33,308 bases of DNA, from the NCBI GenBank assembly GCA_002779995.1, contig PEWX01000060.1, positions 1 through 33,308 on the forward strand, read 5' to 3'. The translations under genes were made by a program, and so were the position numbers. This stretch comes from Piscirickettsiaceae bacterium CG07_land_8_20_14_0_80_44_28. GTDB taxonomy: Bacteria > Pseudomonadota > Gammaproteobacteria > Thiomicrospirales > Thiomicrospiraceae. The notes beneath the pieces are model-generated. The model saw nothing but the letters and a program-made list of their open reading frames with translations. It ran no database searches and had not been told where the DNA came from. Below, one piece after another: positions 16,848 through 30,675 of this stretch; positions within the stretch are counted from its first letter, which is position 1, and the number at the start of each line of letters is the position of its first letter.

Positions 16848-17708
16848 TTAATGAGACCCCATGGCCATGCCAATACTGCCGCCCCATTTGGTCACAGCAG
16901 CACGAGCCGATGCCAAGGCATTTTCTGGTAAATCCAATTCCTTAAGGGCTAAATCACGCCAGGTTTTTAACTCTTGGGTAAGATAGGTTTCATCGGCTAC
17001 TTCTGCGACAATATAGTTGCTAAGCATAATCAAAGCTGTTAGATGTCGCACACGTTCATTATTATGGTTCTTTTTAGCGAAGTCATTATCATGATGAAAC
17101 AATATCGCTTTGTAGATATCCGGGTTCATATGCCATTTCTTACAGGCCAAACAGCCGATAAAGGCATGGTTGGTATGATAGGTGTCAATTTCTTTTTGGT
17201 AACCACTAAAAGGATAAGCTTGTTGTAATTCAAAAATTTCAGCGTAACTTTCAGAATCATATCGTCCCATATAAATTGCACCGACATTCTGCATTAAGCC
17301 TGCCATATAGGCCTCAGAGCGAGACACATCAAACACCCAGTAGGAAAGTTCCGCTGCGGCAATGCCGCATTTTGCGCCCTGTATTAAAATGGGTTTTTCA
17401 GACGGGCTGATATCCAAGATTTGCACCATGCCAGATGACAAAAAGAGATTGTTAATTTCATCCAAACCCAATACATTCACCGCCGCTTTGGCATCCTGTA
17501 CTTTACGATTTTCTACGGTAATATTGGTATTCACCAGCTTTAAAAAACCAGCCAGTAACTCGGGGTTATGACTGATTAAATTCGCCACTTTAACGGTATT
17601 GGGATATTTAAAATTTAACTCGGCTTGAAGTAATAACACCTCTTCGGGCACATTGGGCACCGATTGACTTTTTAAAATTTCCGAAGCTTTTTCAATCAAG
17701 GACTGCAT
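16848..17708 (-). CDS. HDOD domain protein
   Basis: A 286-residue cytoplasmic protein consisting almost wholly of an HDOD domain, the HD-related output domain of bacterial signalling proteins. Visible family features are LPxxP-like VPNVPEEVLLLQ (about 17-28), ISHNPELLAGFLKLVN (about 45-60), AAVNVLGLDEINNLFL, and a later helix with AYMAGLMQNVGAIYMGRY, the counterpart of the usual GLLHDIG where the metal-binding His-Asp is replaced. A YKAILFHHDND segment follows. It is therefore probably non-catalytic and acts by protein interaction. It is monocistronic, diverges from the receptor/GGDEF-EAL operon, and ends at a strong terminator. A role in the same c-di-GMP circuit is possible, but only by proximity. 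Confidence 0.85.
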   Translation of the reverse strand: MQSLIEKASEILKSQSVPNVPEEVLLLQAELNFKYPNTVKVANLISHNPELLAGFLKLVNTNITVENRKVQDAKAAVNVLGLDEINNLFLSSGMVQILDISPSEKPILIQGAKCGIAAAELSYWVFDVSRSEAYMAGLMQNVGAIYMGRYDSESYAEIFELQQAYPFSGYQKEIDTYHTNHAFIGCLACKKWHMNPDIYKAILFHHDNDFAKKNHNNERVRHLTALIMLSNYIVAEVADETYLTQELKTWRDLALKELDLPENALASARAAVTKWGGSIGMAMGSH

Positions 17709-17914: not shown

Positions 17915-20098
17915 ATGAATCGTTTCATTCGCTTATCCCAACAAATGCCGTTATTATTAACACTCAGTGTCGCTTTAAGCCTAATCGTTTTATTGAGTAT
18001 TACCGTCTATGAAGTGTCTGAACTGCAACGCCCACAACCGCAATCCTTAAAACCATCGCCCAAAATTCATACGCTGAAACTGGGGCATAATACCCCCGAT
18101 AATACCGCGCTCCATGCTGCCGCTCAGCGCTTTGCCAAACAGGTTGAGGCAGAAAGCCACGGCCGTTTAAAAATCGAACTCTTCCCGGCACAACAACTGG
18201 GCAATGATCACCAAATGATTGAAATGACCCGCGAAGGCGAACTGGATATACTATTGGTGCCGACGGCCAAATTAAGTGTTCCGATTCCGGCGATGCAATA
18301 TGCCGATCTGCCTTTTTTGTTTCCCACAAGAGAGGATGCCTATCGGTTATTAGACGGAGAGCCTGGTCGATTGTTGCTCGAAAAACTCAAGTCCATTGGC
18401 TTATTAGGCGTCACTTTTTGGGAGAATGGTTTTAAACACTTTACCGGTCATCAATTTTTTACCACCCCGGAAGATTTTGTCGACAAAAAATTTCGGATTA
18501 TGAAAAGCCGACTGATTGAATCTCAATTCAATGCCTTAGGCGCCGAAGCCATTCCCATTGATTTTCACAGCACCTATCAAGCCTTAAAAGACGGCGTGGT
18601 TGATGGACAGGAGAATCCTTTGGTCGCCATTGCCAGCATGGGATTTCACAAGGTTCAGTCACACTTAACCCTCAGTGAACATGGCTATTTAAGTTATGTG
18701 TTTGCCTTTAGCCAAAACACCTTCTCAAAATTACCACAAGATTTAAAAGCGCTACTGATTGAAGCTGCTCACGACCAAACAGACTGGGAACGTCAAGAAA
18801 CGCAAAGGCGTGAAACCGCCTTCTTAACTAAAATTAAGGATGCCGGTGTGCAGGTTCGAGGGTTAACTCGCCAGCAGCGCCAAGTTTTGGCTGCCAAAAC
18901 GGCACATCTGATTCAACAATTTGAACCGATTATTGGTAGCAATATCATCAGTTACACCCAAACCGACCTCAACCAAAAATATGCATTCTCAGACAACACA
19001 CCCAAAATCGCGATTGGGCTCAACACCGACCTGTCTTCTGAAGCCAAACAAGCAGGATTAGCCATTAAACGCGGGATGGAATTGGCCATTGCCGACCTGA
19101 ATGCCCAAGGCGGACTGTTAGGACAAGAGGTAGTATTGCTACCGATGGATCACCGTGCCTTGAGTAGTCGCGGCCAACAAAATATAGAAAAATTGGCGCT
19201 CCAAAAGCATTTAATTGCCATTATGGGCGGGGTTCACAGCGCAGTCATCATGGCCGAGTGCCCACTCATTCACCGCCTGAAAATGCCTTACTTAGTGCCT
19301 TGGGCAACAGCAACGGAGATTACCAAAGCCGATGGACAACATCAATTCCTGTTTCGCGTGTCGATTAATGACGCCATTGGCGCTAAAAAATTGGCAGACT
19401 TTACCGTACAACATCATCAAAAGCCGGCGATTATTGTCGAAAATTCGGTTTGGGGGCGGAGCAATCTACAACGGCTAAAAGCATTTCTAACTGAAAAAGC
19501 CATACCGCCGGTATTAGAATTTACCTTTAATCGGGGTCAAAGAGATTTCGATGCGCTCATTGAGCTTATAAAACAAGTGGACGCCGATTCGATCATTTTA
19601 GTTGCCAACGCACAAGAAGCCGCCGCCCTTGTGAAAAGACTGCATCAAAAGCAGAGATTACTGCCGATTATTTCTCATTGGGGGATTGCCGCCGGCAATT
19701 TTTTTGAGGAGGTTTCCCCCTTTTTATCTGAGTTAAACCTGCATTTGCTACAAACCTATTCATTTTTTGAACCCCATAACGCCACTAAACATCACCTTTA
19801 TCAACGCTATCTTGAGGTTTATCAAACGCTTGATATCCCCTATGCAGCCAATGGCGTTGCCCAAGCATACGATCTCGTTCACCTACTGGCCTTAGCCGTT
19901 GAGCAACAGCAAAGTACCGACCCGGAAGCGATCCAACAAGCCATGGAACAACTGCCGCCCTACCAAGGCGTGTTAAAAGACTATGCACCCGCCTTTAGCG
20001 CCGATTCACATGATGCTTTAACCGAAGAAGATATTTATATTGCCAAGGTCACCCCCAAAGGTCAGCTGCTAGCGGTTGCACCACAGGAGACACCATGA
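17915..20098 (+). CDS. membrane-anchored fusion of a TRAP DctP-type receptor and a LivJ-type (type I) periplasmic binding domain
   Basis: A 727-residue protein with a single N-terminal membrane segment (about 11-35, hydrophobic with no evident signal peptidase site) and two different solute-binding folds outside the membrane. Residues about 52-345 are DctP-like: LGHNTPDNTALHAAAQRFA, FPAQQLGND, the ligand-carboxylate Arg in FRIMKSRL (about R193), and ALKDGVVDGQENP. Residues about 362-715 are a Peripla_BP_6/LivJ-like domain: IKRGMELAIADLNAQGGLLGQ, IMGGVHSAVIMAECPL, YLVPWATATEIT, FRVSINDAIGAKKLADF. No TRAP permease or Liv ABC genes are nearby, so uptake is unlikely to be its job. The stop overlaps the start of a GGDEF-EAL gene (ATGA, 20095-20098). 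Inference: a dual-ligand receptor that controls the neighbouring c-di-GMP enzyme. Ligands are unknown; DctP proteins usually bind organic acids and LivJ types bind amino acids, amides or urea. Confidence 0.85.
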   Translation: MNRFIRLSQQMPLLLTLSVALSLIVLLSITVYEVSELQRPQPQSLKPSPKIHTLKLGHNTPDNTALHAAAQRFAKQVEAESHGRLKIELFPAQQLGNDHQMIEMTREGELDILLVPTAKLSVPIPAMQYADLPFLFPTREDAYRLLDGEPGRLLLEKLKSIGLLGVTFWENGFKHFTGHQFFTTPEDFVDKKFRIMKSRLIESQFNALGAEAIPIDFHSTYQALKDGVVDGQENPLVAIASMGFHKVQSHLTLSEHGYLSYVFAFSQNTFSKLPQDLKALLIEAAHDQTDWERQETQRRETAFLTKIKDAGVQVRGLTRQQRQVLAAKTAHLIQQFEPIIGSNIISYTQTDLNQKYAFSDNTPKIAIGLNTDLSSEAKQAGLAIKRGMELAIADLNAQGGLLGQEVVLLPMDHRALSSRGQQNIEKLALQKHLIAIMGGVHSAVIMAECPLIHRLKMPYLVPWATATEITKADGQHQFLFRVSINDAIGAKKLADFTVQHHQKPAIIVENSVWGRSNLQRLKAFLTEKAIPPVLEFTFNRGQRDFDALIELIKQVDADSIILVANAQEAAALVKRLHQKQRLLPIISHWGIAAGNFFEEVSPFLSELNLHLLQTYSFFEPHNATKHHLYQRYLEVYQTLDIPYAANGVAQAYDLVHLLALAVEQQQSTDPEAIQQAMEQLPPYQGVLKDYAPAFSADSHDALTEEDIYIAKVTPKGQLLAVAPQETP

Positions 20099-22365
20099 CA
20101 GCATTTCCACAACATCACACCGGTCACCCTAAAAAAAGTATCAAAACCCGCATTATTTGGACGATTAGCCTATTAATGCTCAGTGGCATTTTGTTTATTG
20201 CGACCCTCGCCTCACTTCAAACCTATCATCTAATGAAATTGCAAACGGAGAGTTATTTTAATAACCTCACCAGCACCTTATATAATCGGCTGGAACAACA
20301 CCTGACTTACCTAATAGAAAACAGTGATCGCCTCACTCAAAATGAGTTGATGGTGAATGCTTTTACCGACAGTTTGGGACGACAAAAATACCTGTCTCCT
20401 TTAATGAAAGGGTTTATGCAACACCAAGATGTTCAAGCCATTGCGCTCGTGGATTATGATGCCCATCCGATTTTTCAAACGCACGGTGCCCTCCTTCAAT
20501 ACAACCAGTCACCGCCATTACGTGCCGCCTTGACATTCACTCAAACCCGCTATTTTGTTGAACAAGGGTTTTTGTATATTATTTCGCCCATTAAATACTA
20601 CACCACCACCCAAGGCGCATTGATTGTTCGGTATAAATTGAAAAATTTGATTGAAGCCTATTTGCCTGTCATTGACCATGGTTATGCCAGTATCACTCAT
20701 CAAGATCAAATAATTTTTTCCAATGGCCACAGTGACGAAAAAAATGTCATGTATTTTGACAACGCCCCCTTCACCAATCCGGATGACCTGATTGCCCAAC
20801 TCGGATTAAAAGTCACCATCAGCGTCAAAAAAAGTTATTTTTTAGAACCCATTTTAAAAGCCACAGGCAAGGTGATCTTAATCAGTTTGATTTTTTTGGT
20901 CTTTAGCCTGTATGCGGCCTATCAGGTAGCCAACTCGGTTGTCACTCCCATTTTAGAATTACTAACACGGGTACGCATGTCTACAAAGAGCCAAGAGGTC
21001 TTATGCAGCCCATTAGGAACCAACGATGAACTAGATGAATTGGCGATTGCTTTTGACGAAAAAACCTACAACCTACAACATCAAGCGCAACACGATGCGT
21101 TAACCGATCTGCCCAATCGAATCTTATTTGTCGACCGTTTACAACAGGCCATGCCGATACGCAAGCGCCTTCAGCAAAAACTGGCCGTGTTGTTTTTAGA
21201 TTTGGATCGGTTTAAAGAGGTCAATGACTCCTTTGGCCATGAAGTGGGCGATCAGTTGATCGATAAAGTTTCACAACAAATCCAACAACATTTACATCCC
21301 GAGGATACTTTAGCTCGATTTGGTGGGGATGAATTTGCCATACTCATTTATCAATTTGATCACATCAGCCAACTCGTCAAGCGCATTGAAACCATTCTAT
21401 CAACCTTTCACCAACCCTTTAGTGTCGGAGATTTACAAATTTTTTCCACTTGTGGGATAGGCATTGCCCTCTACCCTGAAAATGGTCAGGACGCTTCTAC
21501 CTTGATGAAAAATGCTGATGCGGCGATGTATCAAGCCAAGCAAAAAGGCCAAAATCAATATGAATTCTATAGCCATGACATGACCGAGCAAACCTATGAA
21601 CGGGTTCGTTTAGAAAGCGAACTCCGCTATGCACTGGCGCATAACGAATTAGAAGTTTATTACCAGCCGCAAATTGAGATGACCACCGGGAAGGTCGTTG
21701 GCTTAGAAACGTTAATGCGTTGGAACCACCCCCAAAAAGGCCGTATTCCACCCGATATGTTTATCCCGTTTGCTGAAGAGATTGGTTTGATTGTGGAAAT
21801 GGATCGCTGGTCAATGAATCAGGCGATGAAGCAGGTTCAACACTGGCAAACAATGGGATTAACCCCTGGAAAATTATCGCTCAATTTATCACTCATACAA
21901 CTCAATCATTTAGACTTTTTGGCATCCGTACAACAAGCCATTGCCCAAAGTCTCATACAACCTGAAGATTTAATGTTTGAAATCACCGAAACCCAAATCA
22001 TGCGCAACCCTGAACAAGCCACTCAAACTTTAACGCGATTAAAAGAACTCGGACTGAGTTTAGCCATTGACGATTTTGGCACAGGTCATTCTTCCTTGTC
22101 TTATTTGAAAAATTTTCCCATTGACAAACTTAAAATTGACCAATCCTTTGTTCGTGATATGACCACCGATAAAGACGATGCCAATCTGGTCAACGCCATT
22201 ATCAATATTGCCAAAAGTTTAGAGATGAGCGTAATTGCCGAAGGGGTTGAAACCCAAGCTCAAGCAGATATGCTTATCAGCAATGGCTGTCATGAAGCGC
22301 AAGGGTATCTGTATAGCAAGCCGCTCAATAAAGCGGACTGTGAAGCCTTTTTAAAAAGCCATTAA
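20095..22365 (+). CDS. membrane GGDEF-EAL c-di-GMP cyclase/phosphodiesterase
   Basis: A 756-residue inner-membrane signalling enzyme. TM1 (about 17-41) is followed by a periplasmic domain of roughly 210 residues, TM2 (about 256-280), a HAMP-like linker (PILELLTRVRMST then DELDELAIAFDE), a GGDEF domain and an EAL domain. The cyclase motif is intact (RFGGDEF, about 407-413). The allosteric RxxD position reads HPED, so product inhibition is probably lost. The EAL motif is LETL, which keeps the metal-binding Glu. Later phosphodiesterase residues are present: NLSLIQL, FEITETQ, IDDFGTGHSS, KLKIDQSFV and AEGVET. Both activities may therefore operate. It is coupled to the upstream DctP-LivJ receptor by ATGA and very likely receives its signal in the periplasm. 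Its 3' end overlaps the convergent metallopeptidase gene by 15 bases. Confidence 0.92.
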   Translation: MTAFPQHHTGHPKKSIKTRIIWTISLLMLSGILFIATLASLQTYHLMKLQTESYFNNLTSTLYNRLEQHLTYLIENSDRLTQNELMVNAFTDSLGRQKYLSPLMKGFMQHQDVQAIALVDYDAHPIFQTHGALLQYNQSPPLRAALTFTQTRYFVEQGFLYIISPIKYYTTTQGALIVRYKLKNLIEAYLPVIDHGYASITHQDQIIFSNGHSDEKNVMYFDNAPFTNPDDLIAQLGLKVTISVKKSYFLEPILKATGKVILISLIFLVFSLYAAYQVANSVVTPILELLTRVRMSTKSQEVLCSPLGTNDELDELAIAFDEKTYNLQHQAQHDALTDLPNRILFVDRLQQAMPIRKRLQQKLAVLFLDLDRFKEVNDSFGHEVGDQLIDKVSQQIQQHLHPEDTLARFGGDEFAILIYQFDHISQLVKRIETILSTFHQPFSVGDLQIFSTCGIGIALYPENGQDASTLMKNADAAMYQAKQKGQNQYEFYSHDMTEQTYERVRLESELRYALAHNELEVYYQPQIEMTTGKVVGLETLMRWNHPQKGRIPPDMFIPFAEEIGLIVEMDRWSMNQAMKQVQHWQTMGLTPGKLSLNLSLIQLNHLDFLASVQQAIAQSLIQPEDLMFEITETQIMRNPEQATQTLTRLKELGLSLAIDDFGTGHSSLSYLKNFPIDKLKIDQSFVRDMTTDKDDANLVNAIINIAKSLEMSVIAEGVETQAQADMLISNGCHEAQGYLYSKPLNKADCEAFLKSH

Positions 22366-29142: not shown

Positions 29143-30675
29143 ATGAAAAACTGGAAGTTACCGGAATTTTTGCAGACCCCTTTGGGGTTGATGACCGTAT
29201 TAGGTTTGCTCATTGCGGTGTCCGAGCTTTTGATTATGATCGTTATTTATGATGCCATCGCTTTTTTGCACATCCCAGATGTTTACTGGAATTTCATTGA
29301 TGCCATCCTGCTGATCCTGTTCGTTTCTCCCGCGCTCTATTTTTTGGTGTTCCAAAAAATACACGATAATGAAGAGCGTTTCCGGCAAATCAACGCCTCT
29401 GTCCAGGATGCGATTATTGTTGTCAACGAACAAGATCTGATTACCGAGTGGAACCTTGCCGCACAAAAAATGTTTCAGTACAGCCAGGAGGAGGCGATAG
29501 GGCTACAGGTAAACCAACTGATATTTCTGCCCTGTCACCACGCTGATGCTGAGCGCGACCTTGCTGGTTTTCAAAAGATTGGTGTCAGGTCACTGATTGG
29601 CAAGACCACTGAAATTTCAGCGTTGCGCAAAGACGGCAGCGAATTCCCCATTGAACTATCCCTTTCAGCGGCCAAAGTGAAAGGCCGCTGGCATGCCATG
29701 GGCGTTATCCGCGACATCACCGAGCGCAAGCGTGCTGAAGATGAACTGCGCATCGCCGCCGTTGCTTTCTCGACCCAGAACGGCATGGTGATAACCGACC
29801 CTGAAGGAAAAATTCTGAGGGTGAACGAGGCCTTCACACGACTGACTGGCTACCGTGCCGACGAAGCGGTTGGCAAAACAATGGCGCTACTGCATTCGGG
29901 ACGACAGAGCCAGCTGTTTTATCAGCATATGTGGCAAAAACTGCTCGATGAGGATCAATGGCAGGGTGAAATCTGGAACAGACGCAAGAACGGTCAGATC
30001 TATCCTGAAATGCTGAGTATTACCGCAGTTGTGTCGCCTGAGCGAGGTGTCACTCATTACGTCGGCAATTTTATAGACATTACTGCTAACAAGGAGGCCG
30101 AGGCAAGGATTCATCGCCTAGCCTATTACGATCCGCTCACTAGTTTGCCTAACCGCCGTCTGCTACAAGATCGTCTGGGTCAAGCGCTGGCGGCCGGAAA
30201 GCGTAGTGGTCGTTATGGTGCGCTCATATTTCTTGATCTGGATAACTTCAAGCCGATCAATGATACTCATGGGCATGATGTGGGTGATTTGCTCTTGATT
30301 GAAGTAGCACGCCGTATTACCCTTTGTGTGCGCGATGTGGACACCGTCGCACGTTTAGGTGGCGATGAGTTCGTGGTGATGCTAAGTGACTTGGATATGG
30401 ATAAAGCCGCATCCACCGCTGAAGCTGAAGCCGTTGCTGAAAAAATCCGTAACACAGTGGCTGAACCTTATCTGTTGACCATTCAGCAAGAGGACGATTC
30501 AGAAACCACAGTGGAGCACAGTTGCACGTCGAGCCTTGGTGTCGCGCTATTCATTAGCCACGAATCCAGTGTGGAAGAGATTATCAAATGTGCTGATATG
30601 GCAATGTATCAAGCGAAAGAAAGCGGAGGAAACCAGATCCACTTTTTTGATCAGACAATTTGTAGTGCAGATTAA
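29143..30675 (+). CDS. membrane PAS-PAS-GGDEF diguanylate cyclase
   Basis: A 510-residue inner-membrane enzyme predicted to make c-di-GMP from two GTP. Two N-terminal membrane helices (about 12-37 and 46-68) are followed by PAS1 (about 77-195: SVQDAIIVVNEQDLITEWN, IRDITERKRAEDEL), PAS2 (about 202-325: NGMVITDPEGKILRVNEAFTR split by family motif, FIDITANKEAE) and GGDEF (about 330-500). The active site ARLGGDEF (about 405-412) is intact and the inhibitory RxxD site is present (RDVD). No EAL domain follows. Its codon use (CTG, GAG, CGC more frequent) looks different from the neighbours, and hairpin repeats lie on both sides, suggesting acquisition. PAS ligands (redox, oxygen, small molecule) cannot be named. 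Confidence 0.9.
   Translation: MKNWKLPEFLQTPLGLMTVLGLLIAVSELLIMIVIYDAIAFLHIPDVYWNFIDAILLILFVSPALYFLVFQKIHDNEERFRQINASVQDAIIVVNEQDLITEWNLAAQKMFQYSQEEAIGLQVNQLIFLPCHHADAERDLAGFQKIGVRSLIGKTTEISALRKDGSEFPIELSLSAAKVKGRWHAMGVIRDITERKRAEDELRIAAVAFSTQNGMVITDPEGKILRVNEAFTRLTGYRADEAVGKTMALLHSGRQSQLFYQHMWQKLLDEDQWQGEIWNRRKNGQIYPEMLSITAVVSPERGVTHYVGNFIDITANKEAEARIHRLAYYDPLTSLPNRRLLQDRLGQALAAGKRSGRYGALIFLDLDNFKPINDTHGHDVGDLLLIEVARRITLCVRDVDTVARLGGDEFVVMLSDLDMDKAASTAEAEAVAEKIRNTVAEPYLLTIQQEDDSETTVEHSCTSSLGVALFISHESSVEEIIKCADMAMYQAKESGGNQIHFFDQTICSAD

Follow-up and report, generated by a model that had tools for sequence, protein, structure and literature searches.

The stretch of DNA analyzed here (the window; 33,308 nucleotides of contig PEWX01000060.1 from Piscirickettsiaceae bacterium CG07_land_8_20_14_0_80_44_28) carries a gene whose single product joins a TRAP-type DctP domain to a LivJ-like domain and whose stop codon overlaps the start of a gene for a GGDEF-EAL protein. 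This locus raises the question of whether a protein built from two transporter-class receptors serves uptake or, as a preliminary description made from the sequence proposed, a c-di-GMP circuit. The inputs of most c-di-GMP enzymes are, to our knowledge, not known. Our analysis indicates that the two genes very probably form a dedicated signaling unit of the NspS-MbaA or LuxP-LuxQ kind, outside any transporter, in which the receptor would contact the periplasmic part of its partner.

One tethered polypeptide carries two classes of solute-binding domain

The receptor gene (17915..20098; plus strand, as are all features below unless noted otherwise) encodes a membrane-anchored protein of 727 residues, defined by its open reading frame, Pfam matches, an AlphaFold2 model, and 42 homologous fusions. 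Pfam placed both halves above its curated cutoffs, assigning residues 56 to 336 to DctP (18080..18922; PF03480; E = 7.4e-80), with which NCBIfam concurred, and residues 365 to 716 to Peripla_BP_6, the type I, LivJ-like class (19007..20062; PF13458; E = 8.3e-35). In the AlphaFold2 model of the full receptor (pLDDT, 90.9; pTM, 0.88), the first half resembled the TRAP receptors 4ovs, 7bbr, and SiaP in Foldseek searches; the solved structures nearest to the second half by sequence were 4mpt and 4q6w, a putative leucine/isoleucine/valine-binding protein. The union of two receptor classes read in the preliminary description was thus borne out, with each half fitting its family. The DctP half shares with TRAP receptors its fold and a conserved arginine (~34% identity to 4ovs and 7bbr); unlike them, the window's receptor is membrane anchored and fused and has no DctQM genes nearby.

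A hydropathy scan revealed a hydrophobic N-terminal segment (residues ~11 to 35; 17945..18019) that forms a helix over residues 11 to 35 in the model; the scan found no lipobox there, and no cleavage site was obvious by eye. This helix tethers the receptor to the inner membrane. The hydrophobic segment is kept in nearly all homologues, and in two of them (L122 and L012) a lipobox-like cysteine replaces the anchor.

Residues W169, N171, G172, F173, K174, R194, E233, N234, and P235 of the DctP half were invariant in 32 aligned receptors. R194 (codon at 18494..18496) lies in the FRIMKS motif and is, we assume from SiaP and DctP, the carboxylate-binding arginine expected of TRAP receptors; its retention, already remarked on in the preliminary description, holds in all 32. 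The ligand of this domain is probably an organic carboxylate. In the Peripla_BP_6 half, nearly all receptors keep W463, F480-R481, D486, N510, W513-G514-R515, H588-W589, and Q613, and the domain is of the amino-acid or small aromatic/organic-acid type, with ligand binding predicted. Mean pairwise identity was 60% for the DctP half versus 42% for the Peripla_BP_6 half, a pattern that would fit a fixed first pocket or docking surface and a freely varying second one.

The partner is a predicted bifunctional enzyme with its own periplasmic domain

The second gene (20095..22365) encodes 756 residues arranged as a transmembrane helix, a periplasmic dCache-like sensor, a second transmembrane helix, a HAMP-like segment, GGDEF, and EAL (open reading frame, Pfam, alignment, and AlphaFold2). 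Both the overlap with the receptor gene and the periplasmic domain had been noted from the sequence and proved correct: stop and start share 4 nt (ATGA; 20095..20098), and a putative ribosome-binding site for the enzyme (AGGAG; 20085..20089) can be read within the receptor's final codons. Pfam recovered the GGDEF domain (21085..21558; E = 1e-50), the GGDEF motif of which is intact, and the EAL domain (21619..22323; E = 1.5e-80), in which every motif residue examined is present (ETL, N, E, DD, K, E, and Q), ETL standing for EAL. The RxxD inhibitory-site motif, present in many homologues, is missing from the window's enzyme (HPED). The catalytic residues of both domains are kept across the GGDEF-EAL partners, with SSDEF in one homologue. 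On these motifs, the partner is predicted to be bifunctional.

The sensor domain (residues ~45 to 249; 20227..20841), which is common to all partners, gave a subthreshold match to dCache_1 in Pfam (E = 2.9e-6; 27.4 bits versus a cutoff of 45). Its AlphaFold2 model (pLDDT, 87.7) matched KinD, DctB, and PctA in Foldseek, with target TM-scores mostly between 0.5 and 0.66, and, lower in the ranking, LuxQ of the LuxP-LuxQ complex (2hj9_D; E = 1.2e-3). As modeled, the domain has a dCache fold.

Receptor and sensor are paired at every locus and inherited together

A survey of the homologous loci, for which L095 was completed from L120, found a same-strand partner adjacent to the receptor at all 40 loci with downstream sequence, and the partner carried in every case a periplasmic sensor of one specific subfamily. 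Partner starts lie between −65 and +79 nt from the receptor end, with ATGA the commonest junction (14/40). Receptor and effector are separate open reading frames throughout; an apparent receptor-enzyme chimera in a Thiomicrorhabdus-type genome (a 1,506-residue open frame) was rejected, as the DNA has a stop codon between the genes. All partners open with a homologous module of ~310 residues, comprising a transmembrane helix, a periplasmic domain of ~205 residues, another transmembrane helix, and a HAMP-like segment. Behind this module lie GGDEF-EAL (18 loci) or HisKA-HATPase (20 loci), with the remaining 2 partners cut by contig ends. Loci of the GGDEF-EAL class consist of receptor and partner alone; partners with HisKA-HATPase usually add REC and often Hpt. 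Since a REC-HD-GYP gene lies no more than three genes away in 9 of the 20 kinase loci, these too may end in c-di-GMP breakdown. The link between receptor and partner proposed in the preliminary description is strengthened by this pairing, and by the reciprocity and tree agreement described below. In about half of the family, hybrid histidine kinases take the place of GGDEF-EAL.

In the reciprocal direction, 369 gammaproteobacterial genomes were searched with a sensor-module profile. The eight best-matching genomes were exactly the eight that carry the fusion, at adjacent coordinates (Fisher P of ~1e-16 over the 369 genomes). The next six matches (G158, G182, G164, G125, G373, and G403) adjoin Peripla_BP_6-only receptors, and the rest covered essentially the HAMP end only, except for a partial match in G234 that reached profile position 160. 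Among 94 relatives, the six genomes matching the periplasmic part were the six with the fusion. From this reciprocal co-occurrence in both samples, the sensor subfamily looks dedicated to receptors of this type. Chance adjacency of receptor and partner was ruled out by the pairing at 40 of 40 loci together with the reciprocal presence.

Pairwise identities among receptors and among periplasmic sensors were closely correlated (r = 0.90, a value reached in 0 of 5,000 permutations; 0.90 within the GGDEF-EAL class and 0.96 within the histidine kinase class); the correlation partly reflects shared species history, yet the pairing is unbroken at all loci examined. The receptor tree and the sensor tree each split the GGDEF-EAL class from the histidine kinase class with one change. 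As read from these trees, the cytoplasmic output was exchanged once while receptor and sensor stayed together.

The fusion loci are free of transporter permease genes

No DctQ, DctM, LivH, or LivM gene was found near the fusions when the homologous loci were searched with seeds that did match Liv genes in L125 and L128. The lack of an adjacent DctQM or Liv permease gene, first seen in the window, is thus a property of the homologous loci as well, and no homologue was found to sit beside a permease. A transporter role was rejected as a reading of the fusion loci on this permease-free context, the seeds working elsewhere. The fusions share the Peripla_BP_6 domain with LivJ-type ABC receptors, but LivHMGF genes are not adjacent to them.

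The DctM and Liv permeases of the window's genome sit on other contigs. One of these, C60 (L139:260-4626, minus strand), holds the genome's only DctM gene, together with a DctQ gene and with no adjacent DctP gene, followed by a gene for a PAS-GGDEF-EAL protein. The lack of a DctP gene there leaves a small probability that the window's receptor has a transport role. The genome encodes two DctP domains in all. Contig C73 (L138:4974-12506, minus strand) carries an unfused counterpart of the receptor: a DctP gene with an apparent twin-arginine/lipoprotein signal, in one run with genes for Peripla_BP_5/6 (UrtA-like), dCache-PAS-PAS-GGDEF, and MASE3-PAS-GGDEF-EAL proteins, with no permease gene among them. 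Here the same receptor classes are paired with c-di-GMP enzymes as distant paralogues.

The fusion is widespread, and related single-domain receptors occur

Across a scan of genomes and sampled relatives, we counted 42 distinct full or partial DctP-Peripla_BP_6 fusions, a recurrence that ruled out an assembly or annotation artifact or a chance fusion. They occur in the Gamma- and Betaproteobacteria, the Magnetococcales, the Campylobacterota, and the Nitrospirota; carriers include Hydrogenovibrio, Thiomicrorhabdus, Amphritea, Oceanospirillum, Azoarcus/Parazoarcus, Burkholderiaceae, Rhodoferax, Magnetococcales, Sulfurimonas, Sulfuricurvum, other Campylobacterales, and Nitrospirota, including “Candidatus Magnetobacterium casense.” The tandem architecture, unfamiliar to the author of the preliminary description, does appear to be undescribed but, with 42 loci, is by no means unique.

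The receptor nearest to that of the window belongs to Hydrogenovibrio sp. SC-1, a genome of the same genus. At that locus (L037:7944-12315), the closest relative, frameshifts interrupt both genes, the receptor near its N terminus and the enzyme between the HAMP-like segment and GGDEF, so that either the pair is decaying or the sequence contains errors; L008, the closest homologue of the receptor, has an N-terminal frameshift. Because only 2 of 12 sampled genomes of the window's genus carry the pair and Campylobacterota and Gammaproteobacteria are intermixed in the tree, the two-gene unit seems to move between lineages. A plasmid search at 1e-60 found no close relatives. The DctP halves form one group in which a DctP-only receptor, at L073, is nested, which suggests a single origin of the fusion and one loss of Peripla_BP_6.

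At this locus (L073:7416-13284), the anchored receptor has DctP alone and is accompanied by a hybrid kinase with a homologous sensor, along with a REC-HD-GYP regulator. Elsewhere (L124, L126, L129, L130, and L131), Peripla_BP_6-only receptors adjoin dCache-like hybrid kinases or a dCache-PAS-GGDEF-EAL enzyme, the latter accompanied by a second diguanylate cyclase gene; in the tree of Peripla_BP_6 halves, these signaling receptors neighbor the L122 and L012 fusions. Bacillales loci L075 to L092 were rejected as family members, those inspected being single DctP genes beside histidine kinase/response regulator and TRAP genes. In four of these loci (L075, L077, L080, and L087), two DctP genes are consecutive, one following the kinase/regulator pair and the other at the head of DctQM, as though sensing had a copy of its own.

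Within the window, an HDOD-domain gene (16848-17708, minus strand) lies divergently and directly upstream of the receptor gene, and a PAS-PAS-GGDEF cyclase is encoded at 29143-30675 (plus strand); the 2.28-Mb genome has 45 GGDEF domains. No inverted repeat was found upstream of the receptor gene, and a promoter/terminator scan performed no better than it did on shuffled sequences.

Proposed mechanism and alternative readings

We propose that the inner-membrane-tethered receptor presents two unlike Venus flytrap domains, DctP and LivJ-like, to the periplasm and that ligand occupancy would alter its docking on the dCache-like domain of its neighbor. The dCache-like domain would in turn act through its transmembrane helix and the HAMP-like segment on the balance between c-di-GMP synthesis by GGDEF and breakdown by EAL; roughly half of the family would couple this front end to a hybrid histidine kinase. 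The tether would hold receptor and enzyme in one membrane, making it unlikely that the receptor is shared with a transporter. That the two proteins touch, that both pockets bind ligands, and that the two inputs are integrated is predicted from the pairing and by analogy with known systems in which a solute-binding protein (SBP) acts on a sensor. We regard it as an evenly balanced proposition that TRAP-class and ABC-class flytraps, fused together, make a tethered receptor with two inputs, computing whether two metabolites are present together; that the result would be sent through a conserved dCache-like adaptor to an output that can be exchanged, either GGDEF-EAL or a hybrid kinase, is a part of the same reading for which we would argue neither more nor less strongly.

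The two pockets are not strictly required, given that the DctP-only receptor at L073 is found with a homologous sensor kinase. That locus, with its histidine kinase and HD-GYP regulator, and the Peripla_BP_6-only receptors next to histidine kinases or GGDEF-EAL enzymes with the same sensor type, would fit an ordinary one-ligand SBP-sensor pair of the NspS-MbaA kind, in which only one domain senses a ligand and the other serves as a spacer or as a platform for docking; the far stronger conservation of DctP than of Peripla_BP_6 fits as well. Near-invariant residues are found in both halves, however (W169, N171, K174, R194, and N234 in DctP; W463, F480-R481, N510, W513-R515, H588-W589, and Q613 in Peripla_BP_6), and the fusion has been kept at 42 loci across phyla with a single apparent loss of Peripla_BP_6, so we consider a one-ligand receptor rather unlikely, if the most serious of the competing explanations. 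dCache domains often bind ligands themselves, and the sensor model resembles those of KinD (pyruvate), DctB (succinate), and PctA (amino acids), with R143, Y169, T171, and Q173 invariant in the partner alignment. The receptor might, then, merely concentrate a ligand of the dCache-like domain or tune its basal state. We think this improbable: among the 369 genomes, no strong sensor match lacked an adjacent SBP, sensor evolution tracks that of the receptor, and a membrane anchor would be odd for a scavenger. Still further from our expectation is a receptor that belongs to a distant TRAP or Liv transporter as its substrate-binding subunit and regulates the enzyme as well. Such dual use has a precedent in BctC (PMC5812351), and the DctQM genes on C60 look like orphans in a genome with only two DctP domains; but the receptor is tethered and fused to a second receptor class, no homologous locus has a permease, and the other DctP, on C73, is the better candidate for DctQM.

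Comparison with known systems

The dedicated signaling unit that we favor has relatives in function. The window's receptor is not homologous to NspS, which we take to belong to the polyamine SBP family; only DctP and Peripla_BP families matched it in Pfam. In the NspS-MbaA system of Vibrio cholerae, a separate periplasmic binding protein likewise switches a paired transmembrane GGDEF-EAL enzyme, with norspermidine-bound NspS favoring c-di-GMP synthesis and the absence of NspS favoring breakdown (PMC8967002). NspS is a single unit, whereas the window's tethered chain is DctP plus Peripla_BP_6, and the sensor half of the window's family also drives histidine kinases. In LuxP-LuxQ of Vibrio harveyi, the dCache-like periplasmic domain contacted by the SBP is one that the sensor model matches (2hj9_D); LuxP, however, is a single type I SBP and LuxQ is a hybrid kinase only, in contrast with an anchored tandem of unlike SBPs. 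Tandem Venus flytraps also feed a c-di-GMP enzyme in CdgH, a V. cholerae diguanylate cyclase (PMC5431781), and a kinase in BvgS (PMC4352136), but these are repeats of one class on the effector's own chain, whereas the window's pair unites two SBP classes and would act in trans. In BctC-BctE of Bordetella pertussis (PMC5812351), a sensor kinase receives its signal from an SBP belonging to a secondary tripartite transporter class; unlike the window's receptor, BctC has a transport role too and adjoins its permease.

SBP control of cyclases is recognized in general (PMC9602780), and a 2022 review of c-di-GMP inputs lists, within the PBP clan, only SBP_bac_3 (RmcA) as studied (PMC8846402). No paper on a DctP-Peripla_BP_6 fusion was found in the open-access library searched, which returned general SBP, TRAP, and c-di-GMP papers only. 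What appears new for SBP-dependent signaling is the heterotypic tethered receptor with an exchangeable output; SBP control itself is known.

The family offers a defined c-di-GMP input with two testable pockets, and it is present in culturable Hydrogenovibrio, Thiomicrorhabdus, Amphritea, and Azoarcus. It also amounts to a natural experiment, one front end having been replugged to a different output, and it could supply ready parts for two-input biosensors. Its study could reveal how two nutrient signals are merged in a cell before it commits to settling or swimming. Bacteria of three phyla seem to use this receptor as a two-pocket antenna for c-di-GMP or phosphorylation signaling and not for the import of food.
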